From assembly GCA_947450675.1 (NCBI GenBank), contig CANFWI010000001.1, positions 62,001 to 126,000 on the forward strand: a stretch of 64,000 bases of DNA, read 5' to 3'. Origin of the DNA: Comamonadaceae bacterium. Its GTDB lineage: Bacteria > Pseudomonadota > Gammaproteobacteria > Burkholderiales > Burkholderiaceae_C. Below are positions 6,953 to 61,286 of the stretch, piece after piece. The notes below the pieces were generated by a model, which did not search any database, was not told the origin of the DNA, and was given only the letters and a program-made list of their open reading frames with translations. Position 1 is the stretch's first letter. Every line of letters begins with the position of its first letter. Both the position numbers and the translations under genes were made by a program.

Positions 6953-6968
6953 AGCAAAGCCCGTGCCA
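6953..6968 (-). promoter_or_regulatory. Sigma54 promoter of the activator-fliEFGHI operon
   Basis: The minus strand reads TGGCACG-GGCT-TTGCT, an exact match to the -24/-12 consensus TGGCACG-N4-TTGCW. It lies about 38 nt upstream of the ATG at 6915 with no intervening gene. Transcription should start about 12 nt after the GC element. No GCGGCAA box is seen upstream, so a different activator (the FleQ-like protein at 61470) may act here. Confidence 0.85.
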
Positions 6969-7047
6969 CCCATTATTGAAAACTAAAGTGCTCAATAAAA
7001 CAGGGGTTTCGCAAGCATTGAAGGGGCCAGCGACGTAATCCCGACAG

Positions 7048-7269
7048 TTACAAGGCCGGTTTCACAAGGACTGTCGGTTTGGCCGCAAAGCCTTCGCAAG
7101 GTTTTCCGTCAATTCGCATCACTTCCATAGCCGGTATGAAACGAGACTTGAAACCGATCAAGCGACACAGGTAAGGCAGCTTCGGGTCCCAGCTGACCGC
7201 GAAGTGCTGGCATTTCCAGCAGTCAGGGCGATCTTTGACCGCAGGTTTGTTGCCATTCAAGAGGCTCAC
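7048..7269 (-). CDS. Small conserved Cys-containing protein coupled to flagellin
   Basis: A 73 aa protein of unknown function. It contains CWKC near residues 17-20, then LCRLIGFKSRF and GKPCEGF, giving four cysteines that could bind a metal. The pattern is reminiscent of a small conserved proteobacterial family, but no function can be assigned from sequence. The start is GTG at 7269, overlapping the fliC1 stop as GTGA, so translation is likely coupled to the flagellin. It has no signal peptide or membrane segment and should be cytoplasmic. It is the last gene of the fliC1 transcript before the activator operon. Confidence 0.75.
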   Translation of the reverse strand: MSLLNGNKPAVKDRPDCWKCQHFAVSWDPKLPYLCRLIGFKSRFIPAMEVMRIDGKPCEGFAAKPTVLVKPAL

Positions 7270-9917
7270 TGCAGAAGCTTGAGGACAGACTGCTGGTCTG
7301 TGTTGGCCTGCGCCAGCACTGCCGTTGCGGCTTGCTTCATGATCGACGTGCGCGACAACTCAGAGCTGGCTGCTGCGTAGTCAGCGTCTTGAATCTGGCT
7401 GCGCGAGGCCTCGGTGTTGACGACCACGTTCGACAAGTTGTCGATCACATGCTGCAGCCGGTTCATCACGGCACCCATGGTGGCGCGTGCGCCGTTGACT
7501 TTGTCCATGGCGGCGTCCAGCAGGGTCAAAACGGCGGTGGCACCCGCGGCAGTGGCGATGCTCACGTCAGGCGGCGTCTTGCCAGAATCACCCGTGATGG
7601 CACCGGTGATCGGTCCACCTTTGCCAAAGTCAGCCAAGTCAATGCTGATGGTCTGGTTGGCGGATGAACCGACTTGAAAAGTCATCCGGCCGGTGCGCGG
7701 TGGTGTCATTTTGCTGGTGGCGTCATTCACGTCACCACCAAAAGTGCCGGCCTGAAAACCCAGTGACTTGAAGTCGCCTTCCGCATTAAAACCATTGACA
7801 CCGGCTTCCACCGTGAAGGGTTTGCTGACGTAAGGTGGTGGCGCGCCATTGCCGGGGGCTGCGCCTGGAGGCGGCATCATAGGCGCTGGACCGCCCGTCA
7901 AAGAAATTGAACCGTAGAGGGTGGTCGCCGTGCTCGAGCTGGCTGTAGCGCCGGCGATACCTGTCACGCCGGTAGCACTGTCGATCAAAGTGCCGCCGGT
8001 CAACCCAAGACCGAATTCCGACGCTGGGGTAGCAGCGCTGTCGTACCAGACGGAGAGATTCCGGCCATCCGGCGTCGTGAGCGTGATGCCGCCTGTGCCT
8101 GAGTCACTCGCCAACACCCCGTGTTGACCTTGCTGCGCATTGATGGCGCTGATCACGTTGTTCCGGCGATCTGCCGGCAGGTCAGTCGTCGCAAAAGTAA
8201 CCGACACCTGAACACCGTTGAGATACAAGGACTGCGTCCCCGAGACGAGCACTGTGGTGTCACTGCCGCTGGTGGAAACCGCGTTGGCTTTGGCGGTCAC
8301 ACCGGTCAGGGCGTGGCTGTCATTGATGGCGGCGGCAGTGGCTATCGCGCTGGCACTGTTCAAGCTGGTCGCAGACATCGTGTTGCTCAGTTTGTCGTCG
8401 CTGGATGTCGCGGCTCGAATGGCAACGCCATTGATCAGCAGATCCCCTGCACCCAAAGTTTGGATGTCGCCTGCGCTGGTCACGACCGGCCGTGGTCCGG
8501 TGTTGATCACGGCTCGGTTAGCCGAGTAGTCGGCTGGTGGCAGGCCCGAGCGGGTCCAGTCGCCGGTGTTGGTGGTGGTGATCTCCAACTTTCCGCCGAC
8601 CGAAGTTTCCAGTGAATAAGTTCCAACTTGGAGACCTTCTTTCAAACCGGTGCTCGAGGCAAAACCAGCGGACGAACTGCCGAGACTGTTGAAAGCCACT
8701 TCAATGTTGCCGCCTTTCGCCGACTGTAGGCGAATGCCTTGGTTGTCGCTGTTGCTGTCAATCGCCACCACGCCGGTCTGGGCGCTGATGGCGTTGATGG
8801 CATTGACCACAGCGGTCCGCGACTCACGGGTGTTGCTGGCCGTCGTCATGATCGGGGCCGAGGTAAAGCCGTTGATGCTGACCGTACCGCTGGCAGCCGG
8901 CAGATTGGTGCTCATGGCGCTACCCGTCATGACATTGGTGTTCACAACGGCCGCAACGCCCGTGGTGAGAGAGACCAAATTGATGGCTGCAGCACGGGCA
9001 ATCGCACTGCCCGCCGCTGAGTCAGCCGGAGAAATTTTGTCGTCTGCGGCTAAAGATGCGCCCACCGTGACCCCGTTGATCAGGATGTCATTCGGCGCCA
9101 TGGCAGGCACTGGCGTGAAGGTGCGGTTGACGGCGAAAGAGACGGTATTGGCTGCAGCGAAAGCGGTGGCAGACTTGATGACCAAATCACCCGTCCCTGC
9201 GCCTCCGGTTAGAGCTGTGTTGGAAAAGGTGATGGTGTTCGGTGTTCCGGTGGCGACAACTCCACCCGCTATAGTCGTTTTTGAACCATCACTAAGTGTC
9301 AACGTGGCTGTTGTCGTTGCTGCCGTGCTGCCAACAACGATGCTCACATTGCCGGCCTTGGCCAAGCCGCCAGTCACACTCACCACCGGTCCAGCGTTGT
9401 TTGAAGTCACCGCCCCAGCCGCATAACTCAACCCATCCGTCGAAGCCCCATCTGAAGTCGCCTTGTAAACCGGGCGTTCACCAACAGGGTCTCCCGTCGA
9501 GCCATTCAAGACAGGGAAGCCGTTCCACTCGGTGGTGCCGGCGATCCGCACAATTTCTTGTTTGAGCTGTTGAAACTCCAAGTCCAGATAGCCGCGCTGG
9601 TCGGTGGCGTTGGTGTCGTTGATGGACTGGATGGACAGTTCCCGCATGCGTTGCAGCATGTTCGTGATCTCGTTGGTTGCGCCCTCAGTCGTCTGAATCA
9701 AGGACACCGCGTCGCCCGCATTGCGCATGGCCTGGTTCAGGCTGCTGATTTGCTGCGTCATGCGAGTGGCAATCGCCATACCTGCCGCGTCGTCCTTGGC
9801 CGAGTTGATGCGCTTGCCGGTGGACAGCTGCTGCATCGCAATCGCGCTGGCACGGTCAGTCGTCTTCAACGCTGATTGGGTGTACAGCGCTTTGACGTTG
9901 GTATTGATCACTGACAT
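7266..9917 (-). CDS. fliC: Flagellin 1, oversized (fliC1)
   Basis: Filament subunit secreted by the flagellar export apparatus. The conserved D0/D1 ends are clear: the N-terminus begins MSVINTNVKALYTQSA with [20 protein letters not shown], and the C-terminus ends VLAQANTDQQSVLKLLQ. At 883 aa it is much larger than common 300-500 aa flagellins. The centre (about residues 170-760) is Ser/Thr/Gly/Ala-rich and holds at least three Flagellin_IN-like repeats of the form DxLINGVxI...ATAAAINxxxxLTGVxA. A sigma54 promoter lies upstream, unlike the sigma28 promoter of the second flagellin at 36632. A strong AGGAG ribosome site precedes the ATG. Sigma54 control suggests it is made with the hook genes, perhaps as a proximal-filament flagellin. 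Confidence 0.95.
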   Translation of the reverse strand: MSVINTNVKALYTQSALKTTDRASAIAMQQLSTGKRINSAKDDAAGMAIATRMTQQISSLNQAMRNAGDAVSLIQTTEGATNEITNMLQRMRELSIQSINDTNATDQRGYLDLEFQQLKQEIVRIAGTTEWNGFPVLNGSTGDPVGERPVYKATSDGASTDGLSYAAGAVTSNNAGPVVSVTGGLAKAGNVSIVVGSTAATTTATLTLSDGSKTTIAGGVVATGTPNTITFSNTALTGGAGTGDLVIKSATAFAAANTVSFAVNRTFTPVPAMAPNDILINGVTVGASLAADDKISPADSAAGSAIARAAAINLVSLTTGVAAVVNTNVMTGSAMSTNLPAASGTVSINGFTSAPIMTTASNTRESRTAVVNAINAISAQTGVVAIDSNSDNQGIRLQSAKGGNIEVAFNSLGSSSAGFASSTGLKEGLQVGTYSLETSVGGKLEITTTNTGDWTRSGLPPADYSANRAVINTGPRPVVTSAGDIQTLGAGDLLINGVAIRAATSSDDKLSNTMSATSLNSASAIATAAAINDSHALTGVTAKANAVSTSGSDTTVLVSGTQSLYLNGVQVSVTFATTDLPADRRNNVISAINAQQGQHGVLASDSGTGGITLTTPDGRNLSVWYDSAATPASEFGLGLTGGTLIDSATGVTGIAGATASSSTATTLYGSISLTGGPAPMMPPPGAAPGNGAPPPYVSKPFTVEAGVNGFNAEGDFKSLGFQAGTFGGDVNDATSKMTPPRTGRMTFQVGSSANQTISIDLADFGKGGPITGAITGDSGKTPPDVSIATAAGATAVLTLLDAAMDKVNGARATMGAVMNRLQHVIDNLSNVVVNTEASRSQIQDADYAAASSELSRTSIMKQAATAVLAQANTDQQSVLKLLQ

Positions 9918-9966
9918 TTTTTTCTCCTGAATCGGTTGGCAAGCTTGCCGCTACAGCAACAACTTG

Positions 9967-9982
9967 AGCACAAACAGTGCCA
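9967..9982 (-). promoter_or_regulatory. Sigma54 promoter of flagellin 1
   Basis: The minus strand reads TGGCACTGTTTGTGCT. GG and GC have the exact -24/-12 spacing and only one core mismatch (GTGC for TTGC). The flagellin ATG is about 50 nt downstream. Three phased TTGCCRC boxes lie about 50-80 bp upstream. Confidence 0.75.
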
Positions 9983-10033
9983 ACCCTCAGCGCCTGACGA
10001 AAGCGGCCAGCCATGGGCGAAAAACGGCAGTTC

Positions 10034-10061
10034 TTTGCCGCTCATTGCCACTCTTTGCCGC
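10034..10061 (-). promoter_or_regulatory. Putative activator-binding boxes upstream of flagellin 1
   Basis: Three half-sites TTTGCCGC, ATTGCCAC and TTTGCCGC (plus-strand reading) start at 10034, 10044 and 10054, exactly 10 bp apart, so they lie on one DNA face. A fourth inverted half-site (AACGGCAG) is at 10023-10030. The position upstream of a sigma54 promoter fits an enhancer for a bacterial enhancer-binding protein. Assignment to the protein at 5419 is inference. Confidence 0.6.
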
Positions 10062-10079
10062 CACACAGGGCGCCAATGA

Positions 10080-10547
10080 TTAGCTCTGAAGGCCTGTCGC
10101 CGGCATGGCCAGCAGGTGCTCACCCATGACTTCACGCTCTTGCAACAGGTCTGCATCTTGCGGCCAGAAGGTCAGACCCTGGTCAACCACTTGCACGGCT
10201 TCTGCCGGGTCTAGGTTGCAGTACAGCGCGCGGGCCAACATGCGGTAGGTCATCGGCTGAGTGCGGTCTTGCTGGACCTCACGCAGGTCACGCAGCAGCT
10301 CAATGGCCAAGGACCAATCTTGCCGTGTCATGGCCAGCAAACCGCCCATGGCCAAAATGTCTTCGCTCAACGGATACAAGGCAACGCCAGCATCGGCCAG
10401 TGCCTGCGCCAAGTCGTTCTGCTCTTCAGACATCAACCACTGAATGCCCAGCCGAATGTCGCTAGGCGAAAAGCGCGAAACATCTTTGAAGGATTGCGAT
10501 TGACCAGCAGCAGCTTGCTGGACGAGGCGTTGAAATTCGGGGTTCAT
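10080..10547 (-). CDS. TPR-like protein of the flagellar regulon
   Basis: A 155 aa all-helical protein without signal peptide. The segments SEDILAMGGLLAMTRQDWSLAIELLRDL, YRMLARALYCNLDPAEAVQVVDQGLTFWP have tetratricopeptide spacing, so a chaperone or scaffold role is plausible. It resembles in outline the TPR chaperones of type III secretion needles, but homology to a named family cannot be shown here. It lies directly upstream of flagellin 1 in the same orientation and has its own sigma54 promoter at 10628. No fliS is present in the window, so it could serve as a flagellin chaperone (inference). Confidence 0.7.
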   Translation of the reverse strand: MNPEFQRLVQQAAAGQSQSFKDVSRFSPSDIRLGIQWLMSEEQNDLAQALADAGVALYPLSEDILAMGGLLAMTRQDWSLAIELLRDLREVQQDRTQPMTYRMLARALYCNLDPAEAVQVVDQGLTFWPQDADLLQEREVMGEHLLAMPATGLQS

Positions 10548-10627: not shown

Positions 10628-10643
10628 AGCAAAAGTGATGCCA
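10628..10643 (-). promoter_or_regulatory. Sigma54 promoter of the TPR gene
   Basis: The minus strand reads TGGCATCACTTTTGCT, that is TGGCAT-N5-TTGCT with correct GG/GC spacing and one mismatch in the -24 element. The leader to the ATG at 10547 is about 70 nt. Confidence 0.8.
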
Positions 10644-41880: not shown

Positions 41881-41902
41881 AATGTGGATGCATGACATCA
41901 AT

Positions 41903-41929
41903 ATGTCGACCGCTGCTTGACTTTCTTGA
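41903..41929 (-). promoter_or_regulatory. Weak sigma28-like promoter of fliD
   Basis: The minus strand reads TCAAGAAA-N11-GTCGACAT. The -35 core TCAAG and spacing match the other sigma28 sites, but the -10 has only the CGA core. fliD could alternatively be read through from flgKL. Confidence 0.35.
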
Positions 41930-41948
41930 GCCAGAGCCTCACGCGACA

Positions 41949-42872: not shown

Positions 42873-42899
42873 GGGGATTCCTCAAATGTAGCGCTGGGG

Positions 42900-46153: not shown

Positions 46154-46158
46154 GGTTT

Positions 46159-47313: not shown

Positions 47314-47344
47314 GAAGTCAGACGGTTTGGACAAACAAAGGCAT

Positions 47345-47426
47345 CGTCATTGCGAGCGTAGCGCGGCAATCCATGCCTGCGAATCTCGACGATGGATCGC
47401 CACGACCTACGGCCTCGCGATGACGG
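47345..47426. repeat. REP-type palindromic repeat between flgH and flgI
   Basis: The arm CGTCATTGCGAGCGTAGCGC plus GGCAATCCATGC is repeated in inverted form (ATGGATCGCCACG ... CTCGCGATGACGG). The element forms a long hairpin and lies inside the flg operon, so it could stabilise or terminate the transcript. Confidence 0.85.
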
Positions 47427-47467
47427 AAATATAAAATTTTTTTCAAAATCTATATCTTTATAAAAAC

Positions 47468-48154: not shown

Positions 48155-48936
48155 CACATGTTGGTGTTGAGGAATCGCAGCATGCCGTCAACAGCAGAAA
48201 TCGCCTTCGAGTTGATCTCGTAAGCGCGCTGTGTCTCGATCATGTTGACCATTTCTTCAACCACGTTAACGTTGGAGGCTTCGAGCGAGCCTTGCATCAA
48301 GGTACCGGCGCCGTTGGTGCCTGGTGCCAGCACGGTAGGGGTTCCACTGGCGGGAGTTTCCTTCATCAGGTTGCTGCCCAGCGCCTGCAAACCACTTGGG
48401 TTCACAAAGCGAGCCAACTGCAACTGACCAATGATTTGGCTGCCGCCGGCGGCGAGTTCAATGGACACCGCCCCCGTGGCGGCAATGGTCACGCTGGCTG
48501 CGGTGTTGGGAATGGTGATGGCCGGCTGCAGCAAAGCACCACCGGAATTGACCAACTGGCCGGTCGGCGACAGCTTGAAGCTGCCGTCACGCGTGTAGGC
48601 AATGGTGCCGTCTGACTTGGCGATCTGAAAGTAACCGTCACCCGTGATGGCGACGTCGAGCGGGTTGGAGGTATTGACCAAGCCGCCTTGGGCGTGGAGC
48701 TTTTCTGTGGCGATCACGCGCACACCGGTGCCCAGCATCATGCCGGTCGGTGCAACAGCGTTGACGTCGGTCTGACCGCCCGCTTGGCGGATGTTTTGGT
48801 AGATCATGTCTTCGAACACCGCGCGGTCGCGCTTGAAGCCGGTGGTGTTCACGTTGGCCAGGTTGTTCGAGATCACGTTCATGCGTGTCTGTTGTGCGTC
48901 TAGGCCTGTTTTGGCCACCCACATTGATGCTTCCAT
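48154..48936 (-). CDS. flgG: Flagellar distal rod protein FlgG
   Basis: Distal rod subunit, 260 aa. The N-terminus (MWVAKTGLDAQQTRMNVISNNLANVNTTGFKRDRA) and C-terminus (SNVNVVEEMVNMIETQRAYEINSKAI) are the rod/hook consensus. GDGYFQIAKSDGTIAYTRDG is the conserved beta domain. Length is normal, and the insert distinctive of FlgG is present. Confidence 0.97.
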   Translation of the reverse strand: MEASMWVAKTGLDAQQTRMNVISNNLANVNTTGFKRDRAVFEDMIYQNIRQAGGQTDVNAVAPTGMMLGTGVRVIATEKLHAQGGLVNTSNPLDVAITGDGYFQIAKSDGTIAYTRDGSFKLSPTGQLVNSGGALLQPAITIPNTAASVTIAATGAVSIELAAGGSQIIGQLQLARFVNPSGLQALGSNLMKETPASGTPTVLAPGTNGAGTLMQGSLEASNVNVVEEMVNMIETQRAYEINSKAISAVDGMLRFLNTNM

Positions 48937-48980
48937 GTCAGCTCCTTCTATCGTTTGTTGCGTTCAGGCTGGTCATTGCA

Positions 48981-49742
48981 TCAGCCTAGTTTGATCATGG
49001 TGGCGCCAGACTCGTCAATCGTCTTGCTCTCTTTGATGTTGCGCACTTGGTGCTCAAAAGAGCGGCTTTGGTCCATCAACTTGACCATGACTTCCATCGG
49101 ATTGACATTGCTGCCCTCCAATGCGCCAGGGGTCAAAGAAGGTACGACGGGACCATCTGTGATGTCTGCGCCAAGCTTTCCCACCGGGCCAAACAAACCG
49201 TCTTGGCGACGCTCCAAAGGCGTGGTGCTGGCATCGCGCAACAAGACGCGGTCAATCAAAATGGAGTTGGCCACCCCAGCCTGCGCCCGGTCAATGGCGT
49301 AGACCGAACCATCCGGGTTGATCGAGACACTCAGGCCTGGCGGTATGGTGATGGCTCCACCGCCCTGCCCGCGCACCACTTGATGCAAGCTGTTCTCAAG
49401 CACGCCGGCCGTGCTGACGCGCAAGTCGCCACGCCGTGTGAAAGCCAACTCACCGTTCGGTGCGCTGACAGCCAGCACGGTGCTGTCGTTCATGGCCACA
49501 TCCGTGGCTGTACCCGTCGCCATGATGGCGCCCGACTTCAGCTGAATCACATCGGCACTGACGGCCTGCGGCTGCATGCGCGAAGGGAAGCCTGGGCCAT
49601 CGATTTTGATCGAACGCATAGCCACTTCGTAACTGCGCTTGAAACCAACGGTGCTAACGTTGGCCAGCTCGTTGGTGGTCATTTGACGTGACAAGCTTTG
49701 CTGGTCGATCGCAGCGGCGGCGTTAAAGGCGAGGCGGTCCAT
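48981..49742 (-). CDS. flgF: Flagellar proximal rod protein FlgF
   Basis: Proximal rod subunit, 253 aa. MDRLAFNAAAAIDQQSLSRQMTTNELANVSTVGFKRSYEV at the N-terminus and EGSNVNPMEVMVKLMDQSRSFEHQVRNI at the C-terminus match the rod family. It lies directly upstream of flgG with a 44-nt gap. Confidence 0.96.
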   Translation of the reverse strand: MDRLAFNAAAAIDQQSLSRQMTTNELANVSTVGFKRSYEVAMRSIKIDGPGFPSRMQPQAVSADVIQLKSGAIMATGTATDVAMNDSTVLAVSAPNGELAFTRRGDLRVSTAGVLENSLHQVVRGQGGGAITIPPGLSVSINPDGSVYAIDRAQAGVANSILIDRVLLRDASTTPLERRQDGLFGPVGKLGADITDGPVVPSLTPGALEGSNVNPMEVMVKLMDQSRSFEHQVRNIKESKTIDESGATMIKLG

Positions 49743-49776
49743 GGCGTGTTCAGCTTCTTAGTTTCTCAGTGCTTCA

Positions 49777-52620: not shown

Positions 52621-52647
52621 TCAGGGCTCCTGGAAATCTGGCTACTT

Positions 52648-52676
52648 AAAAAATATGGGGCGGCGCTTTAGCCGCC
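52648..52676 (-). terminator. Hairpin between flgD and flgE (possible attenuator)
   Basis: On the minus strand GGCGGC-TAAAGC-GCCGCC includes the flgD stop, and CCATATTTTTT follows. It resembles a weak terminator but lies inside the operon, so it may lower flgE-downstream transcription or protect the flgD mRNA end. Confidence 0.4.
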
Positions 52677-53372
52677 AATGCGGGTGACGGTCGACAGCGG
52701 TACGCTGAGTCCGCCGTCAACTTGCAGCATCAACGGACTGGCAGCGTCGGCTTGGCTGACACTGCGCACAGTAGCCAGCGTCTGAACTGGCGGGTTGGAA
52801 CTCACCCCGCCAGAGTTGATCGTGGCTTTGAAGCGGTACTTGCCATCAGCAACCGCAGCGCCGTTTGAATCCAAGCCGTCCCATGTCAGCGTGAGTGCGC
52901 CAGGAGCTTGCACGCCGGCGATCTGCTCGCGAACCATGTTGCCTTGACTGTCAAACACTTGCAGCGTCATGCCGTCTGCGCCTGCCGGCAAGCTCACAAC
53001 GCCCTGCACGGGCTGACCACCCGACATAATCACTGGCGCGCCGTCAACGGCCACCTTTTTACCAATCAACCCAGTGCCCGTGAGCATGCGGTCTGCCGAC
53101 ATGCTGGTCACAAAGGAGGTCAGCTGAGTCGCCATGTTGGTGGTGGCTTCGAGCTGTGAGAACTGGGCCAACTGGGCCACAAAGGCTTCATTCTTGGTCG
53201 GGTCCAGTGGGTTTTGGTTTTGCAACTGGGTGGTGAACAGTTTCAAAAAGTCACTCTGACTCGCGCCCGTGCTCTTGGCCGCAGACGTTGCTGCGGCTGC
53301 CGCCGCAGTGCCGGTCGTCGTCTTGATGCTGCTTGGCATGGTGGCCGCGACGGTGGGTAGTGGAGTGATCAT
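52668..53372 (-). CDS. flgD: Hook assembly (hook cap) protein FlgD
   Basis: Hook scaffold cap, 234 aa. QSDFLKLFTTQLQNQNPLDPTKNEAFVAQLAQFSQLEAT (about 40-78) is the family signature, and DSQGNMVREQIAG and LTWDGLDSNGAAVADGKYRF belong to the C-terminal FlgD Ig-like domain. The N-terminus is Ala/Thr-rich. It is 12 nt downstream of flgC. Confidence 0.96.
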   Translation of the reverse strand: MITPLPTVAATMPSSIKTTTGTAAAAAATSAAKSTGASQSDFLKLFTTQLQNQNPLDPTKNEAFVAQLAQFSQLEATTNMATQLTSFVTSMSADRMLTGTGLIGKKVAVDGAPVIMSGGQPVQGVVSLPAGADGMTLQVFDSQGNMVREQIAGVQAPGALTLTWDGLDSNGAAVADGKYRFKATINSGGVSSNPPVQTLATVRSVSQADAASPLMLQVDGGLSVPLSTVTRIGG

Positions 53373-53384
53373 GGTGGTGTCCTA

Positions 53385-53810
53385 TCAGGCCTTGGTGAGA
53401 TCGAGCGTGCGCATCAAGAGCTGACGTGCCGTGTTGATGACTTCAACGTTGTTTTGGTAAGAGCGGGAGGCGGCCATCATGTCGACCATCTCACCCATTT
53501 CGTTCACGTTAGACGTGTAGACATAGCCATCTTTGTCGGCCAATGGGTTGCCCGGGTCGAGCAATCGACGAACCGGCGTTGGGTCATCGCTGATCTGCTG
53601 AACCTTGACGCCGCCCTGGTAAGAGTTCCCTGGCGTAGAACCCTGCTGCTCCATGATGGTTTTGAAAACGGCGCGCTTGGCCCGAAAGGCATCTTGGTCA
53701 GTGCCAGCCACCGTGCCGGCGTTCGCCAAGTTGGAAGCGATGGTGTTCATGCGCACTGACTGCGAGTTGAGCGCTGAGCCGGCAATGCCGAAAATTTGGT
53801 CGAGGGCCAT
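53385..53810 (-). CDS. flgC: Flagellar proximal rod protein FlgC
   Basis: Rod subunit, 141 aa. FGIAGSALNSQSVRMNTIASNLANAGTVAG and YVYTSNVNEMGEMVDMMAASRSYQNNVEVINTAR are standard. The ATG at 53810 has AGGAG upstream and directly begins the conserved MALDQIFGIAG; a TTG nine bases earlier is rejected. Confidence 0.97.
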   Translation of the reverse strand: MALDQIFGIAGSALNSQSVRMNTIASNLANAGTVAGTDQDAFRAKRAVFKTIMEQQGSTPGNSYQGGVKVQQISDDPTPVRRLLDPGNPLADKDGYVYTSNVNEMGEMVDMMAASRSYQNNVEVINTARQLLMRTLDLTKA

Positions 53811-53815
53811 GTGAA

Positions 53816-54199
53816 TCAATCTCCTCGCAAGGCTTTGCGGATGCCGCTGACGCGCTGCTCTAAAAAGTTGAGCGTGGCTTGGTAGTCGGCGGCTGACTTA
53901 CCGTATTTCGCTTGCTCGACGTGCAGTTCAACCGTGTTGCCGTCAAAGGCGGTGTTGAATGGAGTCCGGTACTTCACCGCGTCGGCACTGCCGGCGTCGC
54001 CTTGTGCAACGTGACCCGCCTGAGTCGTCACCATGGCGGTGTCTTGGGCCTGCTGCATGACCTGCTTGAAGTCAATGTCGCGGGCTTTGAAGTTAGGCGT
54101 GTCAGCGTTGGCGATGTTGCGCGCAAGCAGTTCCATGCGCTGACTGCGCATACCGAGGGTTTGTGCGTGCACCCCAAGAGCATTGTCCAAAACATTCAT
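53816..54199 (-). CDS. flgB: Flagellar proximal rod protein FlgB
   Basis: First rod subunit and first gene of the flgBCDEFGHIJKL operon, 127 aa. ALGVHAQTLGMRSQRMELLARNIANADTPNFKARDIDF is diagnostic, and NTVELHVEQAKYGKSAADYQATLNFL follows. A sigma54 promoter is about 105 bp upstream at 54304. Confidence 0.97.
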   Translation of the reverse strand: MNVLDNALGVHAQTLGMRSQRMELLARNIANADTPNFKARDIDFKQVMQQAQDTAMVTTQAGHVAQGDAGSADAVKYRTPFNTAFDGNTVELHVEQAKYGKSAADYQATLNFLEQRVSGIRKALRGD

Positions 54200-54303: not shown

Positions 54304-54319
54304 TGCAAAACCTGTGCCA
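54304..54319 (-). promoter_or_regulatory. Sigma54 promoter of the flgB operon
   Basis: The minus strand reads TGGCACAGGTTTTGCA, that is TGGCAC-N5-TTGCA, a full match to the core -24/-12 elements. The 5' leader to flgB is about 90 nt. Confidence 0.88.
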
Positions 54320-54326: not shown

Positions 54327-54399
54327 ATTGCCGCTTTTTTGACGCCATCAAGGCTGAAACAAGGGTGAGCGGCAAGATGTTGCCGCCAGTGATTGCCGC
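54327..54399 (-). promoter_or_regulatory. GCGGCAA / TTGCCGC boxes upstream of flgB
   Basis: Four half-sites on the plus strand are ATTGCCGC (54327-54334), GCGGCAA (54369-54375), TTGCCGC (54380-54386) and ATTGCCGC (54392-54399). They match the elements near the TPR gene and flagellin 1. Their position just upstream of the -24 element fits an activator site. Confidence 0.6.
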
Positions 54400-54524: not shown

Positions 54525-55763
54525 TCAACGCACGCGCGTTGTCACCGGCTGCAGTTGCGGTGTGTTGTCTTCGTAGGCAGCGGTGCGAATGGCTTGCAGG
54601 CGTCCACTGGCCGTTGAACTTTGACCCAGTCGTTCGGCAGCATTTTTAAGCAGACCTTGCAAGATAGATTGGCGCGTCATGGGGGCGCTGGTGTCACGCC
54701 CTTCGTACAGCGCCTTGGCTTGGTTGTTGCCAATGGCGAGCGGCGCATTGGTCCGCACTTCGCTGCGGGCAGAGGGCATCAAGACCGACAAATACAAGTC
54801 ATCAAGACCTGTGGCACCTTTGTTTTTGAGGCCGACGTCGCCAAAGTACTTGTCCACCAGGTGCAGCTGCTGGTAAACGCTGAGGCCCAAAATGGCTTTC
54901 GGATTGGCGGCGAAACCAGCACTGGCAGCACCGCGGTCTGAACCGTTACAAAACTGGATGATGCCGTGGCAGCGCTGATTACTGGCGCGCGGATTCATGC
55001 CGTCGCTTTCCATCAGTGTCATGCGTGCGAAATCGTCGGGGTTGAAGTGATGGGTCTTGGCGAGTTCTAAGATTTTGTCGCGGACGTCGCTTTTTTCGTT
55101 GGCGGGTATGAAACCTTTGGCGACAGCGCGGCTGAGGGTTTTGTCGAGCACGTCATGGCGCGACTGTTCAGGCTTATTGGCCGCTGAAGTCGCAGCCGTT
55201 TCGGCGGTTGCAGTTGCCGTTGCGGTCTCAGTTGACGTTGTATCCACAGGGCCAGACCGAAAAGCCTGCAAAGCGCTTGCCGCCGGAGCGCTTGCGGCCA
55301 ATACCGCTGCGTAGGCCGCCTGACCTTTCAGACTGGCGTCAAGTTCGGCGGCCAAGCCGCTCATATTGAGCTGTTGACCCGGGAAAATTCGGTTGACGTT
55401 GGTGATCTTGTTGTCACTGGCGACCAGCCGGATCATCCGCATGACCTGTGGGCCGCTGAGTTGCACGCCTTGGGCTTGCGCCTGGGCCTTGACCAAAGCA
55501 CTGAGGGTGTCGCCAGAGGCCACGGTGCGGGTGATGACCGGCGCCGGCGTGTCGACTTGTGCGGGCTCAGTCAACCCCGACCACTCGGCTTGCCCGAGCT
55601 TGGGCGAACGGGCGGCCACGGGCCAAGCCTGGCTAAAGGCTTGGCCAAAGGCCTGACCAAATTGCGTCGACGCTACACGGGCCTGAACCCCAGCCGTGTT
55701 TGGGCTCTCATTCAGCCACGCTGATGGACGGACGCTGACGCCCAATGTGTCTTCAAGACCCAT
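54525..55763 (-). CDS. LysM and lysozyme-like (transglycosylase-fold) protein
   Basis: A 412 aa protein. A LysM-like domain (ITRTVASGDTLSALVKAQAQ ... NRIFPGQQLNM, about 75-135) is followed by a Thr/Ala linker. The C-terminal lysozyme-like domain (about 210-340) has FARMTLMESDGMNPRASN, with a Glu at the catalytic position of lytic transglycosylases, and HGIIQFCNGSD. A signal peptide is not clear, so secretion might use the flagellar apparatus. It is the likely source of rod-gap peptidoglycan cleavage because FlgJ here has no muramidase domain (inference). It lies upstream of and in the same direction as flgB. Confidence 0.72.
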   Translation of the reverse strand: MGLEDTLGVSVRPSAWLNESPNTAGVQARVASTQFGQAFGQAFSQAWPVAARSPKLGQAEWSGLTEPAQVDTPAPVITRTVASGDTLSALVKAQAQAQGVQLSGPQVMRMIRLVASDNKITNVNRIFPGQQLNMSGLAAELDASLKGQAAYAAVLAASAPAASALQAFRSGPVDTTSTETATATATAETAATSAANKPEQSRHDVLDKTLSRAVAKGFIPANEKSDVRDKILELAKTHHFNPDDFARMTLMESDGMNPRASNQRCHGIIQFCNGSDRGAASAGFAANPKAILGLSVYQQLHLVDKYFGDVGLKNKGATGLDDLYLSVLMPSARSEVRTNAPLAIGNNQAKALYEGRDTSAPMTRQSILQGLLKNAAERLGQSSTASGRLQAIRTAAYEDNTPQLQPVTTRVR

Positions 55764-55901: not shown

Positions 55902-56663
55902 ATGCAAATGCTGTGCCTACTTTTTCCGACTGCCTGCTGGCGAGCCTTGATGGTCTCGCTGCTGATCGCTGCCAGCGCCCTGCCCGGCGCAGCGCTGGCG
56001 CAAAGCGCGCAAGAAAAACTGCTGACGCAGGTACGCCAATGGGTCGGCAAAACACAAAATACCAGCCCGTCACAAGTTGACTTGGCCCCGCTGGATGCCC
56101 GGGTGCAGATACAAGCGTGTGCGCAAGCTCTGCAGATGGACCTGCCTTTTGCATCGCGTGAGACGGTTCGCGTGCGTTGCACCGAGCCGCCATGGCAGCT
56201 GTACATGCGGCTGCAAACGCCCACCACCTCCAACGCTGGGCAGTTTGAAGTCACCCAAACCGGCTCGCGTGAGGCGGTTACCCGCAAAACCGTGGTCACG
56301 CGGCACTTGACTCAGCGCGGCACCCTGTTAGATGCAAGCATGCTGGAAGAAGTCTCGTTGCCAGCGCAAGGCATTGACCCCCAGGCGGTGGCGTCGATTC
56401 AAGACCTCCTGTACGGCGAGCTGGTGCGGGATGTGCCGGCAGGCCAAGTGCTGCGCAGCAGTGACATCCGCCGCGCGGTGCTGGTCAAGCAAGGCCAGTC
56501 GGCGCTGATGAGTGTGGGCCAAAACAGTGGTTTTCAGATCACGGTGAGGGTTGACGCCCTGCAGGACGGGCGCTTGGGCGAACAAATCCGCTTGAAAAAT
56601 CCGGACTCGGGTCGATTATTAACAGGTACAGTGACAGGGCCCAACGCAGTGCGTGGCCTTTGA
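55902..56663 (+). CDS. flgA: Flagellar P-ring assembly chaperone FlgA
   Basis: Periplasmic chaperone for FlgI ring assembly. The product is about 253 aa. A signal peptide (to about AALAQ, residue 34) precedes the SAF-like domain (SMLEEVSLPAQGIDPQAV and VPAGQVLRSSDIRRAVLVKQGQ). C-terminal GEQIRLKNPDSGRLLTGTVTGPN is conserved. The start at 55902, or the ATG at 55908 with better ribosome-site spacing, is preferred over 55782, since the upstream 40 residues lack conservation and contain the putative promoter. It is divergent from the LysM gene. Confidence 0.9.
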   Translation: MQMLCLLFPTACWRALMVSLLIAASALPGAALAQSAQEKLLTQVRQWVGKTQNTSPSQVDLAPLDARVQIQACAQALQMDLPFASRETVRVRCTEPPWQLYMRLQTPTTSNAGQFEVTQTGSREAVTRKTVVTRHLTQRGTLLDASMLEEVSLPAQGIDPQAVASIQDLLYGELVRDVPAGQVLRSSDIRRAVLVKQGQSALMSVGQNSGFQITVRVDALQDGRLGEQIRLKNPDSGRLLTGTVTGPNAVRGL

Positions 56664-56683: not shown

Positions 56684-56710
56684 TCAAGTTCCAGAATGAG
56701 CGTCCGATAC
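56684..56710 (+). promoter_or_regulatory. Sigma28 promoter of flgM-flgN
   Basis: TCAAGTTC-N11-TCCGATAC, essentially identical to the flaG promoter and close to the FliA consensus. The leader to the flgM ATG (56764) is about 45 nt. It overlaps the flgA transcript's 3' end. Confidence 0.9.
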
Positions 56711-56763: not shown

Positions 56764-57102
56764 ATGACCGATGCCATTTCCCAATATGGGCGGCAGAGCC
56801 CGATAGACAACTCGGCTCGCAATGCGCTTGACAGCAAAGTCGCCGCAGAAGCCAGAGCCGCTGTTGACGCGAATTCGCCAAGCCAGCTGGCTTCGGCGGC
56901 CGACAACAAACCGTCGGTGGCCAAGCCTGGGCCGGACATGTTGATACTCAGCGACGTCGCAAAAAAAGCCATGACAGAACCAACGTTCGACCGGACCAAG
57001 GTGGACTCCATCAAGAAAGCCATTCAAAATGGCCAGTACCCGTTGGACCCACGCCGCATTGCCGAGAGCTTCATGGCCATTGAGCAAATGATCCGTGGTT
57101 GA
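56764..57102 (+). CDS. flgM: Anti-sigma28 factor FlgM
   Basis: Binds FliA (sigma28) until the hook is complete, then is exported. The 112 aa protein has an unstructured Ser/Ala-rich N-terminal half and the conserved C-terminal ALKKAIQNGQYPLDPRRIAESFMAIE-type helix (VDSIKKAIQNGQYPLDPRRIA). The ATG at 56764 is chosen because the sigma28 promoter at 56684-56710 lies inside the longer frame. It overlaps flgN by 8 nt. Confidence 0.94.
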   Translation: MTDAISQYGRQSPIDNSARNALDSKVAAEARAAVDANSPSQLASAADNKPSVAKPGPDMLILSDVAKKAMTEPTFDRTKVDSIKKAIQNGQYPLDPRRIAESFMAIEQMIRG

Positions 57103-57526
57103 ATCCGTGCCTTTGACTGAAGCAGAGATGGCCGCCAAGCGCGGACGGACCGTGCTCACTCAACGGCTGGCGGACGAGCTTCAAGAAATCTTGGAGATGG
57201 AATTTGAGTCCTTGCAAAAACAGGACCTTGAGCGATTTGAACAATTACAGGGCCGCAAGACAGACGTCTTGGCTGAACTGGCGGGTCTCTGCCCGCCTTC
57301 GGACATCCTTCAATCAGACCCCGACTGGCAGGGTCTGCTGCTTGCCATGGTCCAATGCCGTGACATGCATCGGCGCAACGCCATGCTCATTGAACGCAAG
57401 CTTGAAGCCATTCGCGGCACACTGCAAAGCTTGCAAGCGTCTGTCGCCACCAGCAGCGTTGAAGTCTATGACCGCTTGGGTCAAGTGTCCCGCTTCACAC
57501 GCGGCCGCGGTTATCAAGAAGCCTGA
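57095..57526 (+). CDS. flgN: FlgN-family export chaperone for FlgK/FlgL
   Basis: A 143 aa helical chaperone that escorts FlgK and FlgL to the export apparatus. The sequence has long amphipathic helices (ADELQEILEMEFESLQKQDLERFEQLQ and NAMLIERKLEAIRGTLQSLQ). The GTG start at 57095 overlaps the flgM stop. The gene ends 13 nt inside the convergent FlhB-like gene. Confidence 0.9.
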   Translation: MVESVPLTEAEMAAKRGRTVLTQRLADELQEILEMEFESLQKQDLERFEQLQGRKTDVLAELAGLCPPSDILQSDPDWQGLLLAMVQCRDMHRRNAMLIERKLEAIRGTLQSLQASVATSSVEVYDRLGQVSRFTRGRGYQEA

Positions 57527-57813
57527 TCAGGGCTGACTTCCGTCTTTTTTTCGTCACCCGGGCGCATGCCCTTGAGCCAATAAACCCAACTCAAGATCAC
57601 GGCCACCGTGGTGTACAGCTCCGTCGGAATTTCGTCATCCACGTTCAGCCGGCTGAGCAAAGCCAGCAGTTGCGGGTCTTCCGAGACATAAACACCTTGC
57701 CGGCGGGCTTCTTCGACGATCATGGCCGCGACGGCGTCATCCCCTTTGGCAACAACCATCGGCACGGTATTGGGGCCGTATTCGAGTGCGATGGCTTGGC
57801 GGCGCTGGGTCAT
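57514..57813 (-). CDS. FlhB C-terminal-domain homologue (FhlB-like)
   Basis: A 99 aa protein equivalent to the cytoplasmic C-terminal part of the export switch FlhB, without membrane domain or the NPTH cleavage motif. YGPNTVPMVVAKGDDAVAAMIVEEA and the IPTELYTTVAVILSWVYWL tail match FlhB. It could substitute for the FlhB C-terminal fragment in substrate switching. The ATG at 57813 is coupled (ATGA) to the FliK-like stop. The longer frame from 57855 is rejected. Confidence 0.85.
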   Translation of the reverse strand: MTQRRQAIALEYGPNTVPMVVAKGDDAVAAMIVEEARRQGVYVSEDPQLLALLSRLNVDDEIPTELYTTVAVILSWVYWLKGMRPGDEKKTEVSPDQAS

Positions 57814-58910
57814 GCGGAAACGTCCACCACCATGCCGCGGTCCGCAGGCCGCCACTCGGCCGGTTCTGCCGGCCTGCGACCGTGAATGATCTGAAAGCTC
57901 TGCATGCTCAAACCCGCATCCACCAACTGTTGGCCCAGCTCTGCAGCACGCGCCTGCGCCTGCCGCACCACATCAACCTCCATGGCCCACATTTTGAGTT
58001 CGACCCGCTCCGCACCGTGCAGCTGAGTTTTAAGCCATATCTCACCCAGCGACTGACTGCGTGAATGCACGTTAACCGTCAGCGGTGGGGCTTTGCCACC
58101 TTGACGCGGTGCGCGCCTGAAGACCAGCTCAACCGGCTCGGCGTCATGAAAAGGCAGCACCATGCGCATCAGCATTTCGTTCTGGTTCTGCGCTTGCACC
58201 GCTTGCACTTGTGAGGCTTCAAGGTCGTCTACCGCCCGTTGAATACCACCCACTTTGGAAGAGTCATCGTCAGAGTCGCCCCGCTCTATGGCGGCCATCA
58301 GACGCTTGAGTAACTGCTTGGGGTCATCCGCTGGCGGCGCCATGCCACGCGCCAACCAAACTTCCGCGCCCATGCCTGCGGCTACGGCCTGACTCAATGC
58401 CTGCGGCGTGAGCTGCGCCATCGACAGTTGCATGCCCCGCCACTGTGCCTGCAAGTCGGGGCGGGGAACGCTTTGAAGCAAGGCTTCAAGCGTGCCAGGC
58501 CGAAATAATTGCGCCAATTCCGGCTGCCCGGCAGGCCTGAACAAGAGGTTGGCAAACTTAGAAATGAGTCCACTGACCTCCGGCAGCAAGGTCAGGCCCG
58601 TCGCAGCGGCCGAGGCGCCATTGGCCGGCAACAGCTGCAAACTCCACGGTCCGCTGGGTGACGCGATGACCCGCATGCTCAGCGTATGACCTTCTGGCCA
58701 AGGCGAAGGTTTGGGCAGTTCCACCAAGCGACCACGCAGCAGCAAAGCCATGTCACCGCCACCGCGTGCCTGGACGGTGGCCTGGATGATTTCACCGTCC
58801 TTGAGACCTAATTCGCGTGCGGCCGGGACGGCCAGCGGCAGCAACTTTCCATCCAGAAAGACCGCATTGGCAAGGCCAGCCGGCGGGCTGGCTTGGAGCC
58901 CTGAAATCAA
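57810..58910 (-). CDS. FliK-like flagellar hook-length control protein
   Basis: A 366 aa protein with a C-terminal FliK_C/Flg_hook domain (about 265-350: PVELVFRRAPRQGGKAPPLTVNVHSRSQSLGEIWLKTQLHG). Such domains give the switch from hook to filament export. The N-terminal 200 residues are Ala/Leu/Pro-rich and unconserved. The start is TTG at 58910, overlapping the LysM-like gene stop as TTGA. A second fliK near fliJ may lie outside the window, so this may be a paralogue. Confidence 0.75.
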   Translation of the reverse strand: MISGLQASPPAGLANAVFLDGKLLPLAVPAARELGLKDGEIIQATVQARGGGDMALLLRGRLVELPKPSPWPEGHTLSMRVIASPSGPWSLQLLPANGASAAATGLTLLPEVSGLISKFANLLFRPAGQPELAQLFRPGTLEALLQSVPRPDLQAQWRGMQLSMAQLTPQALSQAVAAGMGAEVWLARGMAPPADDPKQLLKRLMAAIERGDSDDDSSKVGGIQRAVDDLEASQVQAVQAQNQNEMLMRMVLPFHDAEPVELVFRRAPRQGGKAPPLTVNVHSRSQSLGEIWLKTQLHGAERVELKMWAMEVDVVRQAQARAAELGQQLVDAGLSMQSFQIIHGRRPAEPAEWRPADRGMVVDVSA

Positions 58911-59332
58911 GGAAACCGAACCCAGCTCCGCCGTTCACTGGCGCTGACGTTTTTACCCTCACCCGACACAGAAGCCGCTTCAGCCCCTTCCAAGACCGGC
59001 AAGATCGAAGCCCGCAGCAACTGAACATGGTCGGGGATTTGAAGCACGGCGCCTGCGCGCGGCCGCGTCGTATTGCCAGACGCGAAAGCCTGCGGGTTGA
59101 GGTCAACAAAAGCCTTGCGCAAGATCTCCACATTCAGCGGACTGTCGGGCACCGCTTTTTGGATTACCCGGTCAAGTGTTTCACCGCGGTGAACGGTGTA
59201 GGTGCGAACCGTTGAGCTTGGCGCAGGCTCAGCAGCCCAGGCTCGAGGAGCACAACAAGCCATCGCGAGGGTGAATAAGATCAAGGCAGCGCTTGCTGTG
59301 CGCGCAGAGCGATCGAAACAGCGGTGGGTCAT
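58907..59332 (-). CDS. Exported LysM-like (FimV N-terminal-like) protein
   Basis: A 141 aa exported protein with a signal peptide (to about WAAEP, residue 34). A LysM-like module RTYTVHRGETLDRVIQKAVPDSPLNVEILRKAFVDLNPQAF (about 43-83) is followed by GAVLQIPDHVQLLRASI. It resembles the N-terminal FimV/LysM module, and so may bind peptidoglycan. It is coupled to the FliK-like gene. Confidence 0.7.
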   Translation of the reverse strand: MTHRCFDRSARTASAALILFTLAMACCAPRAWAAEPAPSSTVRTYTVHRGETLDRVIQKAVPDSPLNVEILRKAFVDLNPQAFASGNTTRPRAGAVLQIPDHVQLLRASILPVLEGAEAASVSGEGKNVSASERRSWVRFP

Positions 59333-59378: not shown

Positions 59379-60686
59379 TTAACGTTGCGTATTGATGGGA
59401 ATCACCGGTGCGTCTGCACGCCAGGCCCGCCAGTCGGTGCGTACCAGCTCACTCGGGCCGGCAACGATTTGCAGTTGCGCGTGCAAAGGATAAACCTGTC
59501 CGACGCGGGCCAGCACCGAGTTGGCAGCCACACCTGACGACAAAATTTGCTGGGGAAATCGCTGCGGGTCTGCCAGCAGCCATTCGTCACCGGGACGCAC
59601 ACCGGCCAAAGCACCCGCGTTGATGCTGAGTTCACTCCCCCGGACTGCGATCACATCTGGACGCACGGCATCACATGAAAACTGTTGCGCCAATGCCTGC
59701 GTCCATGGCTGGATCAAAGCAAAAGCTTGCTCACGCACCGAGGCCTCTAACTGTGGCCTGCCCCAGGCCGGAACTTGCCTCGGCATTTCAAGCTGTGCGC
59801 TGGCTTCATACGCCGGCTTGACTTGACCGCGGGCCACCAATGAAAAGTTCAGCCGCGCCATGATGGGCCGATCCGGCCAGATCGGCAGTACCGAGAGCAC
59901 ATGTGCCGCACCGGTTGCCGGCAAAGCCGGGGCGGGCCTGACGGTCAGAAACGCCTGCCAAGGCAATTGGTCTGCCGTGGTGCTGACCAACAGCCGCTCG
60001 TAACTTGTCCGTGCGGGTGCCGATCGCTCCAACATGCCCCAGCCAGTGGACCCACTACCGACCTGCTGCAACAAACTGGCAGTCAGTTGCCCAAGGGCCT
60101 GCGCCAAGGGCGCATGGTCGACCGACCATGCGCCCTCGACCGTCATGCGCAAACCCACTAAATTCCGCAGGGTTGCCACATGTCCACACGTTTGGGCGGA
60201 TGTGCTGACCTCTCGCATGAGGTCTTTTCGGCCAGCCGAAACGGTTGCCTCAGGGGCTACTGCTGCGCTCAACGCTGGCGCGGCAGGCAGTTGCAACCGG
60301 GCCCGTGGTTGACCGGCGCTGTCGCGCTTGTAGCTCAAGACTTGAACGCCACGCACCTCCATACCGGAACGAAAGCTACTGCCCTCGCGCAGCACGCCTT
60401 GTGCGTCAACCCAAGACAGGCTTTCGACGCGGGTGGCGCCTTCCAGCGCAGCCTGCACCAAGCCTTGGCGAATCGCCTCAAGCCGCTCTTCTGGGCTGAA
60501 CGTGCTCAAAGTCGATTGCGCGCATGCCGTGCTTGCCAGCAACATGGGCCAAGCCAGGCGGCAAAGTGAACGCAAAAAACGCCAACCATCAGCCAAGAAG
60601 ACTCGACAAGACGATGCATCGGCGGCGTGGATTGAACTCACCTCAGGTTCCGTACGGCTGTTTATGTGTGACGAGGTGCTGATCAA
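59379..60686 (-). CDS. FlgT-like flagellar assembly (H-ring) protein
   Basis: A 435 aa exported protein. FSPEERLEAIRQGLVQAALEGATRVESLSWVD (about 63-95) matches the FlgT N-terminal domain, with a middle domain near AQTCGHVATLRN. The C-terminal domain (SINAGALAGVRPGDEWLLADPQ ... ARVGQVYPLHAQLQI) follows. In Vibrio, FlgT builds the H ring around the basal body. The N-terminus before the signal-like LRSLCRLAWPMLLASTACAQ is long; TTG at 60686 overlaps the flgP stop, so an internal start is possible. It is coupled to flgP. Confidence 0.8.
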   Translation of the reverse strand: MISTSSHINSRTEPEVSSIHAADASSCRVFLADGWRFLRSLCRLAWPMLLASTACAQSTLSTFSPEERLEAIRQGLVQAALEGATRVESLSWVDAQGVLREGSSFRSGMEVRGVQVLSYKRDSAGQPRARLQLPAAPALSAAVAPEATVSAGRKDLMREVSTSAQTCGHVATLRNLVGLRMTVEGAWSVDHAPLAQALGQLTASLLQQVGSGSTGWGMLERSAPARTSYERLLVSTTADQLPWQAFLTVRPAPALPATGAAHVLSVLPIWPDRPIMARLNFSLVARGQVKPAYEASAQLEMPRQVPAWGRPQLEASVREQAFALIQPWTQALAQQFSCDAVRPDVIAVRGSELSINAGALAGVRPGDEWLLADPQRFPQQILSSGVAANSVLARVGQVYPLHAQLQIVAGPSELVRTDWRAWRADAPVIPINTQR

Positions 60687-61213
60687 TGGTTTTTAGCGAC
60701 CATTTGACCGAGATACAGCGTGCGCAGATCTCGGACAACGGCCTTGTCTAGCGACAGCGTGGTTTCATACGTGTCCTCACCGGCAGGCGTGATGCTGACC
60801 AGCACGGCCCCGTAAATCACACCCTCAACCCGAGTCCGAAAAGAGTCGTTCTGCACGGTCATGTCGGCTACCGTGGTGGTCGCATCGAGTTGCTGGCCAT
60901 AAACCTGCTCCGTCAAAGAGCGGTACGCGTCGAGCTTTGAGGCCCGAATAGCAAGCAAACGCTGCTGCGCGGGAACACGGTGGTTTTGCACACTGATGAC
61001 CGCATAGCCCGTGGCCGTCAGCGTTTCGCGTTTTTCAACCAAGGGCGCGATCATGCCGGCATCAGCCGCTCGTTGTGCCGCCGCTTGTGACGCGGTGACC
61101 GGCTCAGGCTGAGCTGTCATGGCGGTCTTGCAACCCGACAGACCGATCACGAGCGCAAGCAGTACGAGCGGCAGGGCCGGCAAGCGGGAGGGCATTGAGC
61201 ACAGGCGGTTCAT
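60683..61213 (-). CDS. flgP: FlgP-like outer-membrane lipoprotein
   Basis: A 176 aa lipoprotein of the LPP20/FlgP family, associated with the H ring or outer-membrane collar in polar flagella. A signal peptide with lipobox IGLSGC (about 26-31) is followed by YAVISVQNHRVPAQQRLLAIRASKLDAYRSLTEQVYG (about 70-106). It is first in the operon behind the sigma28 promoter at 61260. Vibrio encodes flgP near flgT in a similar arrangement. Confidence 0.86.
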   Translation of the reverse strand: MNRLCSMPSRLPALPLVLLALVIGLSGCKTAMTAQPEPVTASQAAAQRAADAGMIAPLVEKRETLTATGYAVISVQNHRVPAQQRLLAIRASKLDAYRSLTEQVYGQQLDATTTVADMTVQNDSFRTRVEGVIYGAVLVSITPAGEDTYETTLSLDKAVVRDLRTLYLGQMVAKNH

Positions 61214-61259
61214 GGTCTAAATCCTTGTCAAAAAACGGTGGCGAGAAGCTACAGCACTT

Positions 61260-61286
61260 GTATCGGCACCAATTCATAAACCTTTA
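61260..61286 (-). promoter_or_regulatory. Sigma28 promoter of flgP-flgT operon
   Basis: The minus strand reads TAAAGGTT-N11-GCCGATAC, close to the classical FliA consensus. The flgP ATG is about 40 nt downstream of the predicted start. The same gap also serves the divergent activator gene. Confidence 0.88.

Follow-up and report, generated by a model that had tools for sequence, protein, structure and literature searches.

Genes for an apparent FleQ–FleR/FlrA–FlrC-type sigma54–sigma28 flagellar cascade in a relative of Polaromonas, whose two activators look altered in their signalling parts

Flagellar genes of Bordetella, Burkholderia and Ralstonia are usually controlled by FlhDC. A different arrangement is encoded in the window considered here, a stretch of 64,000 nucleotides from a Comamonadaceae bacterium related to Polaromonas (assembly GCA_947450675.1, contig CANFWI010000001.1, positions 62,001 to 126,000). 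The window comes from a draft genome of 3.06 Mb, assembled in 97 contigs and 94.25% complete. Its flagellar genes occupy 948–10547 and 36632–61213; the roughly 26 kb between them hold other genes, metabolic for the most part, as read from the list of open reading frames. The polar-flagellum genes are probably run by two sigma54 tiers with a sigma28 tier after them, a cascade related by descent to FleQ–FleR of Pseudomonas and FlrA–FlrC of Vibrio that stands in place of FlhDC. The type of cascade would thus be familiar and the lineage unexpected, and both activators look altered in their signalling parts. The relationships of the activators, the promoters, the motifs, the missing residues and domain, and the distribution of the set can all be read from sequence. 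An earlier note on this DNA had proposed a Vibrio/Pseudomonas-style sigma54–sigma28 cascade, and that proposal is supported: a FleQ-like and a FleR/FlrC-like activator, rpoN and fliA are present, FlhDC was not found, and the layout is like the V. cholerae classes. Both of the GAFTGA activators that the note had counted are seen; they are called act1 and act2 below.

The activator act1 (5419–6915, minus strand; 498 amino acids) combines a receiver-fold domain, an AAA+ sigma54 domain with the GAFTGA motif and a Fis-type helix–turn–helix (HTH), the last two closest to FleR/FlrC. Its start is likely the ATG at 6915, since the listed open reading frame begins upstream of the gene's own promoter. 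The best solved relative is FlrC (4qhs, expect value (E) 9.6e-73). In a comparison of FleQ, FleR, FleS, act1 and act2, act1 and Pseudomonas aeruginosa FleR are reciprocal best matches (287 bits, versus 207 to FleQ). The window is no isolated case: in the genome collection, 270 stretches encode relatives, and the best 80 of these 270 were retained; nearly all are metagenome-assembled Burkholderiales, and two are named Limnohabitans strains (Jir61 and JirII-31). FleR shares the helix LGISPRTLRYKLA with 66 of the 84 act1 alignment rows, which include four duplicates. Gene order agrees as well: fleR-fliEFGHI in P. aeruginosa corresponds to act1 followed by fliE (5055–5390), fliF (3163–5031), fliG (2083–3144) and fliH (948–2090), all on the minus strand.

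Residues 1–125 of act1 are predicted to adopt a receiver fold (predicted local distance difference test, pLDDT, 90), with the FleR receiver as second PDB match. The domain was modelled alone because the full-length model is poor (pLDDT 65.5, predicted template modelling score 0.30). A polyubiquitin top hit in the profile search was rejected as a repeat artefact, single repeats having independent E values of 42 or worse. The residues usual for phosphorylation are replaced. Position 57, at the place of the FleR acceptor D53, is Leu in 83 rows and Ile in one; the place of the usual Thr (the T81 position) is Arg in 84/84. Neither an Asp at 57 or 58 nor a Lys at 104–107 occurs in the 84 rows. Five aspartates are reported as essential in P. 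aeruginosa FleR (PMC8335546). In the profile alignment, the D10 place is Pro in 83/84 act1 rows, the D11 place is Phe in 74 and never Asp, and the D99 place is His in 81/84 and never Asp; the D60 place falls in a gap there and on L64 in another alignment. D14, an acidic residue of the receiver pocket, is invariant. A search for FleS-like genes (tblastn, E 1e-3) across 103 loci and 1.61 Mb, not all of it with act1, recovered both of its controls and found no such gene beside act1. It gave two weak matches, one in locus L138 and one at L007:19055 on the contig to the right of the window, neither beside act1.

With a receiver that has lost these usual residues, and with no FleS-like neighbour found, act1 probably works without the usual phosphorelay. 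The alternative is that an unlinked kinase still drives act1 through a shifted Asp at 59 or 60, or through another residue. A receiver domain with an acceptor Asp was not found in act1, the fold being present and the alignment ambiguous by three residues: FleR D53 aligns with L57 in two alignments and with S60 in another. The profile alignment of the two receivers reaches only 27% probability (E 0.00068). An Asp stands at 59 or 60 in 60/84 rows (at 59 in the window), and D14 is invariant. A candidate kinase exists, too. The match at L007:19055 is part of a hybrid histidine kinase of 710 amino acids with an intact-looking receiver, which runs from L007:18149 to L214:3278, lies two genes beyond motB and is conserved in the relatives G092 and G104; the kinase search in this genome covered about 124 kb only. 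Against this alternative stand the uniform loss of the usual residues and the poor conservation of the shifted Asp, with 24/84 rows having none at 56–60. Flagellum synthesis in P. aeruginosa PAO1 is moreover reported to require FleR and to dispense with FleS (PMC8335546). A phosphorelay-driven act1 is unlikely.

The second activator, act2 (61470–62636, plus strand), has an AAA+ domain and HTH closest to FleQ/FlrA. Its best solved relative is FleQ (8p53, E 1.9e-91, HTH included), and in the five-protein comparison act2 and FleQ are reciprocal best matches (293 bits, versus 229 to FleR). The N-terminal receiver-like domain of FleQ was not found: an in-frame stop lies 5–88 residues before the aligned start in 21/21 genes, this one included. 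FleQ is reported to need its receiver to be active (PMC10723142). At the places that bind cyclic di-GMP in FleQ, R185 and R334 are kept, R151 is Ala and E330 is Tyr; the numbering does not match at E332. Lacking the FleQ N-terminal domain, act2 is probably governed by its own amount or by FlhG.

Promoter elements are placed in keeping with these activators. The pattern TGGCAY-N6-TGCW has exactly four matches in the window, all on the minus strand and all in sense orientation, as the earlier note had listed them: before act1-fliEFGH (6953–6968, TGGCACGGGCTTTGCT), before the flagellin gene fliC1 (9967–9982; gene 7266–9917), before a TPR gene (10628–10643; gene 10080–10547) and before the flgB operon (54304–54319). 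In the collected loci, orthologues were placed by tblastn and the 300 bases upstream were scored, a strong site being one that scores at least 14 of 16.2; four duplicate contigs (L126, L137, L140 and L142) were dropped and the window was included. Strong sites precede act1 in 78/79 loci (antisense 0/79), the TPR gene in 27/30 (antisense 0), fliC1 in 27/41 (antisense 2), flgB in 4/4 (antisense 0), flhA in 4/4 (antisense 1) and fliL in 9/9 (antisense 0). For comparison genes the figures are 2/80 (fliE), 0/5 (flgK) and 0/3 (flgI). Rows for fliC2 were mostly fliC1 genes again and those for act2 mostly cross-matches to act1; neither set was used. In the window, a weighted scan for sigma54 sites found none reaching 12.9 upstream of act2 on its strand. 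The fliL site lies inside fliK (L007:7227–7242, minus strand) and is over threshold in 9/9 loci. Codons are frozen there in 3/3 invariant columns, compared with 7/43 elsewhere, which is suggestive of a fliK-internal site that serves fliL. A further frozen block of fliK begins about 48 bases after the start of this site. The element that the note had thought probable before flgA is not supported: it is below threshold and present only in the window and two close, near-identical relatives.

By their enhancer-like motifs, the sigma54 promoters fall into two classes that resemble those of Vibrio, although the division is not wholly clean. The half-site counts that follow include duplicates. CGGCAA is enriched before fliC1 (76, versus 7.0 expected), the TPR gene (40 versus 7.5) and flgB (24 versus 1.3), whereas CGACAG is the top motif before act1 (79 versus 8.2). 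The first half-site belongs to the class III palindrome CGGCA-N6-TGCCG. It occurs twice in the window, on the minus strand upstream of fliC1 (10025–10040) and of flgB (54370–54385, CGGCAAcatcTTGCCG), 42 and 50 bases from the respective sigma54 sites; 0.20 are expected, and one of 100 shuffles reaches two. The palindrome precedes fliC1 in 16/45 loci and flgB in 4/4 (0.05 and 0 in shuffles). Across the collected loci, 20/55 palindromes have a strong sigma54 site at most 150 bases away, as against 2.5% of 3000 random positions. A strict palindrome also lies 138–165 bases into fliK in all six loci, this genome's included, with a placeable fliK start, and likewise inside P. aeruginosa fliK and flaG. 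The class II motif upstream of act1, the direct repeat GTCG-N7-GTCG (7031–7045, minus strand), is found in 34/83 loci versus 0.25 in shuffles. flhA is put in class II because CGACAG occurs in 3/4 loci and its Vibrio counterpart is in class II. A suspected inverted repeat near fliL, TTCCG-N12-CGGAA, was at chance level in the window and was rejected. Given a helix equal to that of FleR, act1 may read the palindrome and act2 the other motif. The shared palindrome would be indirect support for act1 activating the rod, hook and flagellin sigma54 promoters. A FleR motif is reported for Pseudomonas syringae (PMC7532196).

For sigma28, the pattern TNAAGKT-N12-KCCGATWC, with up to one mismatch allowed, has only four matches in the window, all exact, where 0.04 are expected. 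They precede fliC2 (38480–38506, minus), flaG (39042–39068, minus), flgM (56684–56710, plus) and flgP (61260–61286, minus), the same four genes for which the note had listed sigma28 elements. The genes are fliC2 (36632–38413, minus; a flagellin of 593 amino acids), flaG (38566–38961, minus), flgM (56764–57102, plus, start inferred) and flgP (60683–61213, minus; an LPP20 lipoprotein). The pattern was fitted after three sites were known; the flgM site was outside the fitting. With spacers of 11–13, 23 matches occur in 1.57 Mb of collected loci and none in one shuffle. Among the matches listed (19 of the 23, in 18 loci), most precede the same genes as in the window. One lies 65 bases upstream of fliS, with counterparts in loci L128 and L133. 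The Escherichia coli sigma28 consensus finds flgP only, a result equalled by 21/100 shuffles, and leaves fliC2 and flaG below threshold.

The cascade can be proposed as follows. (i) act2, the FleQ-type activator, would activate the class II sigma54 promoters of act1-fliEFGH and flhA-flhF-flhG-fliA; act2 itself is probably made by sigma70, since no sigma54 site was found before it in the window. (ii) act1, the FleR-type activator, would then bind CGGCAA-N4-TTGCCG-like sites and activate class III: flgB, fliC1, fliK and partly the TPR gene. (iii) FliA, held by FlgM until export, would transcribe class IV: fliC2, flaG, flgM, flgP and fliS. We infer which activator binds which motif, the order of events in time and the independence of phosphorylation. 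Sensing of the membrane–supramembrane ring, rotor and export gate is attributed to a two-component system in reports on Campylobacter, Vibrio and Pseudomonas (PMC7064773). A more far-reaching proposal, offered tentatively and with some doubt, is that in these Burkholderiales the checkpoint by which class III genes learn that the basal body is ready would work without a two-component relay. The pseudo-receiver of act1 (invariant D14, R83 and R86) would directly read the state of the export gate or another ligand; an AAA+/HTH-only FleQ would be an ungated or FlhG-governed starter; and the whole set would have replaced FlhDC in part of the genus.

Distribution across the genus bears directly on the place of FlhDC. 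Searches of the assembly (94.25% complete) found neither FlhC nor FlhD, in agreement with the note, and the genome has one rpoN and a fliA that adjoins flhF-flhG just outside the window. (The FlhF model match is below cut-off; FlhG was called by position and a ParA/MinD-type match.) Among 87 genomes of the genus, 21 have an FlhA at least 76% identical to the window's, 19 have one 51–54% identical, and three more have only a distant FlhA; the rest gave no match at that threshold. act1 is present in 20 of the 21 genomes with window-type FlhA and, at that level, in no other of the 87. act2 is present in 19 of the 21 as well as in G022 and G030, and in 0/19 of the FlhDC type. FlhC is above cut-off in 19/19 genomes with the other FlhA type and in G090 and G099. 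Over the 40 genomes of the two FlhA types, act1 and FlhC exclude each other except in G099 (Fisher p 5.8e-9, ignoring shared descent). In a sample of the order (399 genomes), where three candidates were scored in each genome, act1 was found in nine (E at most 1e-95) and FlhC in 122 (E at most 1e-40), with both in a single genome, G349. In a sample of the class (274 genomes), only two besides this genome reach E 1e-90 with act1.

The set may have entered the family in one block and displaced an FlhDC set, or both may be ancestral and differentially lost. Block arrival is a serious candidate that falls short of being probable. In a midpoint-rooted tree of 55 FlhA sequences, the window type makes up a single clade (19/19, support 1.0) that sits among sequences from other orders of the class; FlhA of the FlhDC type, from the same genus, groups with its own family (support 0.62, one further genome inside). 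Identities of the window type agree, with up to 59% to other orders, 51–54% to the other type of the genus and 49% to two genomes of the same family. Against arrival, there is no close donor, and the tree, with its midpoint root and without act1-bearing genomes of other Burkholderiales families, gives no direction.

Beside the receiver ambiguities given above, several observations weigh against the cascade as proposed. The number of strict sigma54 matches is unremarkable (four seen, 1.77 expected; 12/100 shuffles reach four), and a looser weighted scan of the window gave no excess, with 46 matches versus 43–60 in simulated sequence. It is position and conservation that speak for these promoters. 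The site is absent before fliC1 in 14/41 loci, and that of fliK is weak (score 13.3). Class motifs overlap: the palindrome is absent before fliC1 in 27/41 loci and present before the TPR gene in 2/30 only; the TPR upstream region is rich in both half-sites, and that of flhA holds CGGCAA as well as CGACAG. The direct repeat was not found before flhA (0/4) or fliL (0/9), the CGACA half-site is enriched also upstream of fliE, that is, inside act1, and the published FleQ box, GTCAAT-N2-ATTGAC, is unlike the class II motif.

Genomes with unexpected combinations bear on two further readings. One makes act1 the sole master, activating its own sigma54 promoter, with act2 a side regulator of, for example, flgP or an unrelated regulon. 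It draws on the position of act1 at the head of the fliE operon behind its conserved sigma54 site, on act2 being distant from act1 and without its N-terminal domain, and on G023 (88% complete) and G007 (82% complete), in which act1 is present and act2 was not found. However, the act1 promoter motif differs from that of flgB and fliC1, and act2 follows the window-type FlhA and is missing from all genomes of the FlhDC type. The FleQ-like and FleR-like relationships argue for two tiers, and a single-master scheme is distinctly unlikely. G005 shows the converse of G023 and G007, having window-type FlhA and act2 and no act1 that could be found. The other reading is that FlhDC is in control but escaped notice because the genome is a draft, the sigma54 sites being minor. 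The incompleteness and 97 contigs of the assembly leave some room for this, as do the genomes that carry both FlhC and act1: G099, 70% complete and the only such genome in the genus, and G349, of another family, whose FlhC match carries an internal stop. Set against 19/20 act1-bearing genus genomes without FlhC, 19/19 genomes of the other FlhA type with it, and FlhD likewise not found in this genome, a hidden FlhDC is highly improbable.

Further genes lie in the window and its surroundings. Downstream of the flgB promoter, on the minus strand, 39129–54199 holds fliD, flgL, flgK, flgJ, flgI, flgH, flgG, flgF, flgE, flgD, flgC and flgB (flgD, flgF and flgH by reading only). Several structural proteins are unusually long: the fliC1 flagellin (883 amino acids, 7266–9917), FliD (906, 39129–41849), FlgK (920, 42900–45662) and FlgE (947, 49777–52620) exceed the length of most NCBIfam models that they match. 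FlgJ (45659–46153) is short, consisting of the rod-binding part only. A LysM protein without Pfam match (54525–55763, minus), whose tail looks lysozyme-like by eye, is a candidate flagellar muramidase; possibly behind a sigma54 site (55903–55918, minus; 3/3, confined to the window and two close relatives), it may supply the peptidoglycan hydrolase missing from FlgJ. On the plus strand follow flgA (55908–56663, start inferred) and, beyond flgM, flgN (57095–57526). Between these and flgP the minus strand encodes a FliK-like protein (57810–58910, Flg_hook below cut-off), a small LysM/FimV-core-like protein (58907–59332, match below cut-off) and an FlgT-like protein (59379–60686, FlgT_C E 0.0028, below cut-off). 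The TPR protein, with its sigma54 promoter and its position before fliC1, is matched in 39 collected loci (duplicates included) and has a weak HrpB1_HrpK (type III secretion) likeness, below cut-off. The interruption of the cluster (10746–36399) holds mostly metabolic, transport and capsule-like genes, among them a chitinase-like secreted protein (23246–24898) with long Pro-Ala repeats between carbohydrate-binding-like modules, as read by eye. The act1-to-flhA distance is about 66 kb here versus about 46 kb in G092. On contig L007, flhB, fliR, fliN, fliM, flhF, flhG, fliA, fliS and motA were recognized by family match, and fliP, fliO, fliL, fliK, flhA and motB by reading or homology searches. 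A 490-amino-acid protein after flhB (L007:225–1697, minus), without Pfam match, is found in eight collected loci including this genome's.

The open-access literature searched yielded no account of sigma54-controlled flagella in Comamonadaceae; most subscription papers lie outside that search. FlhDC hierarchies share the sigma28/FlgM late tier. They differ from the present set in that neither FlhC nor FlhD was found here and in the lineage of FlhA; the comparison covers Azoarcus, Dechloromonas and the other genomes of the genus, the last by FlhC. Reports describe flhDC in Azoarcus BH72 and in Dechloromonas (PMC8467165, PMC2907700). In Azotobacter vinelandii, FlhDC and not FleQ is reported to run flagella (PMC2885672). 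That is an exchange of the flagellar master regulator among close relatives, as there may have been here, in the opposite direction and in a different group. The present case would be a departure from the betaproteobacterial FlhDC rule within a single genus, one that allows the two types to be compared.

FleQ, FleR, FlrA and FlrC are listed as flagellar activators in general (PMC3162934). The closest parallels are the hierarchies to which they belong. In Vibrio cholerae, class II is reported to comprise the activator, fliF, fliG and flhA-flhF-flhG-fliA; class III fliK, rod genes and one flagellin; and class IV the other flagellin and flgM (PMC6504787). The window resembles this FlrA–FlrBC–FliA four-tier hierarchy in its class II–IV layout and in FlgP and the weak FlgT-like protein. 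FlrC needs an Asp phosphorylated by FlrB; the aligned act1 residue is Leu, and the search beside act1 found no gene of the FlrB/FleS kind. The set offers a natural test of the need for a kinase in a polar-flagellum checkpoint. With the P. aeruginosa FleQ–FleSR–FliA system it shares the place of a fleR relative immediately ahead of fliEFGH, the presence of a FleQ relative, the order flhA-flhF-fleN-fliA, sigma54 sites before fliE, flgB, fliK and fliL, and the same strict palindrome inside fliK. It differs in that no fleS was found beside act1, in an act1 receiver without the Asp, Thr and Lys that are usual there, in an act2 without N-terminal domain that does not adjoin act1, and in a class II motif other than the FleQ box. 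Only half-sites, and no full palindrome, are present at P. aeruginosa flgB, unlike flgB here. The palindrome found both in this set and in P. aeruginosa fliK and flaG is a testable candidate for the FleR operator.

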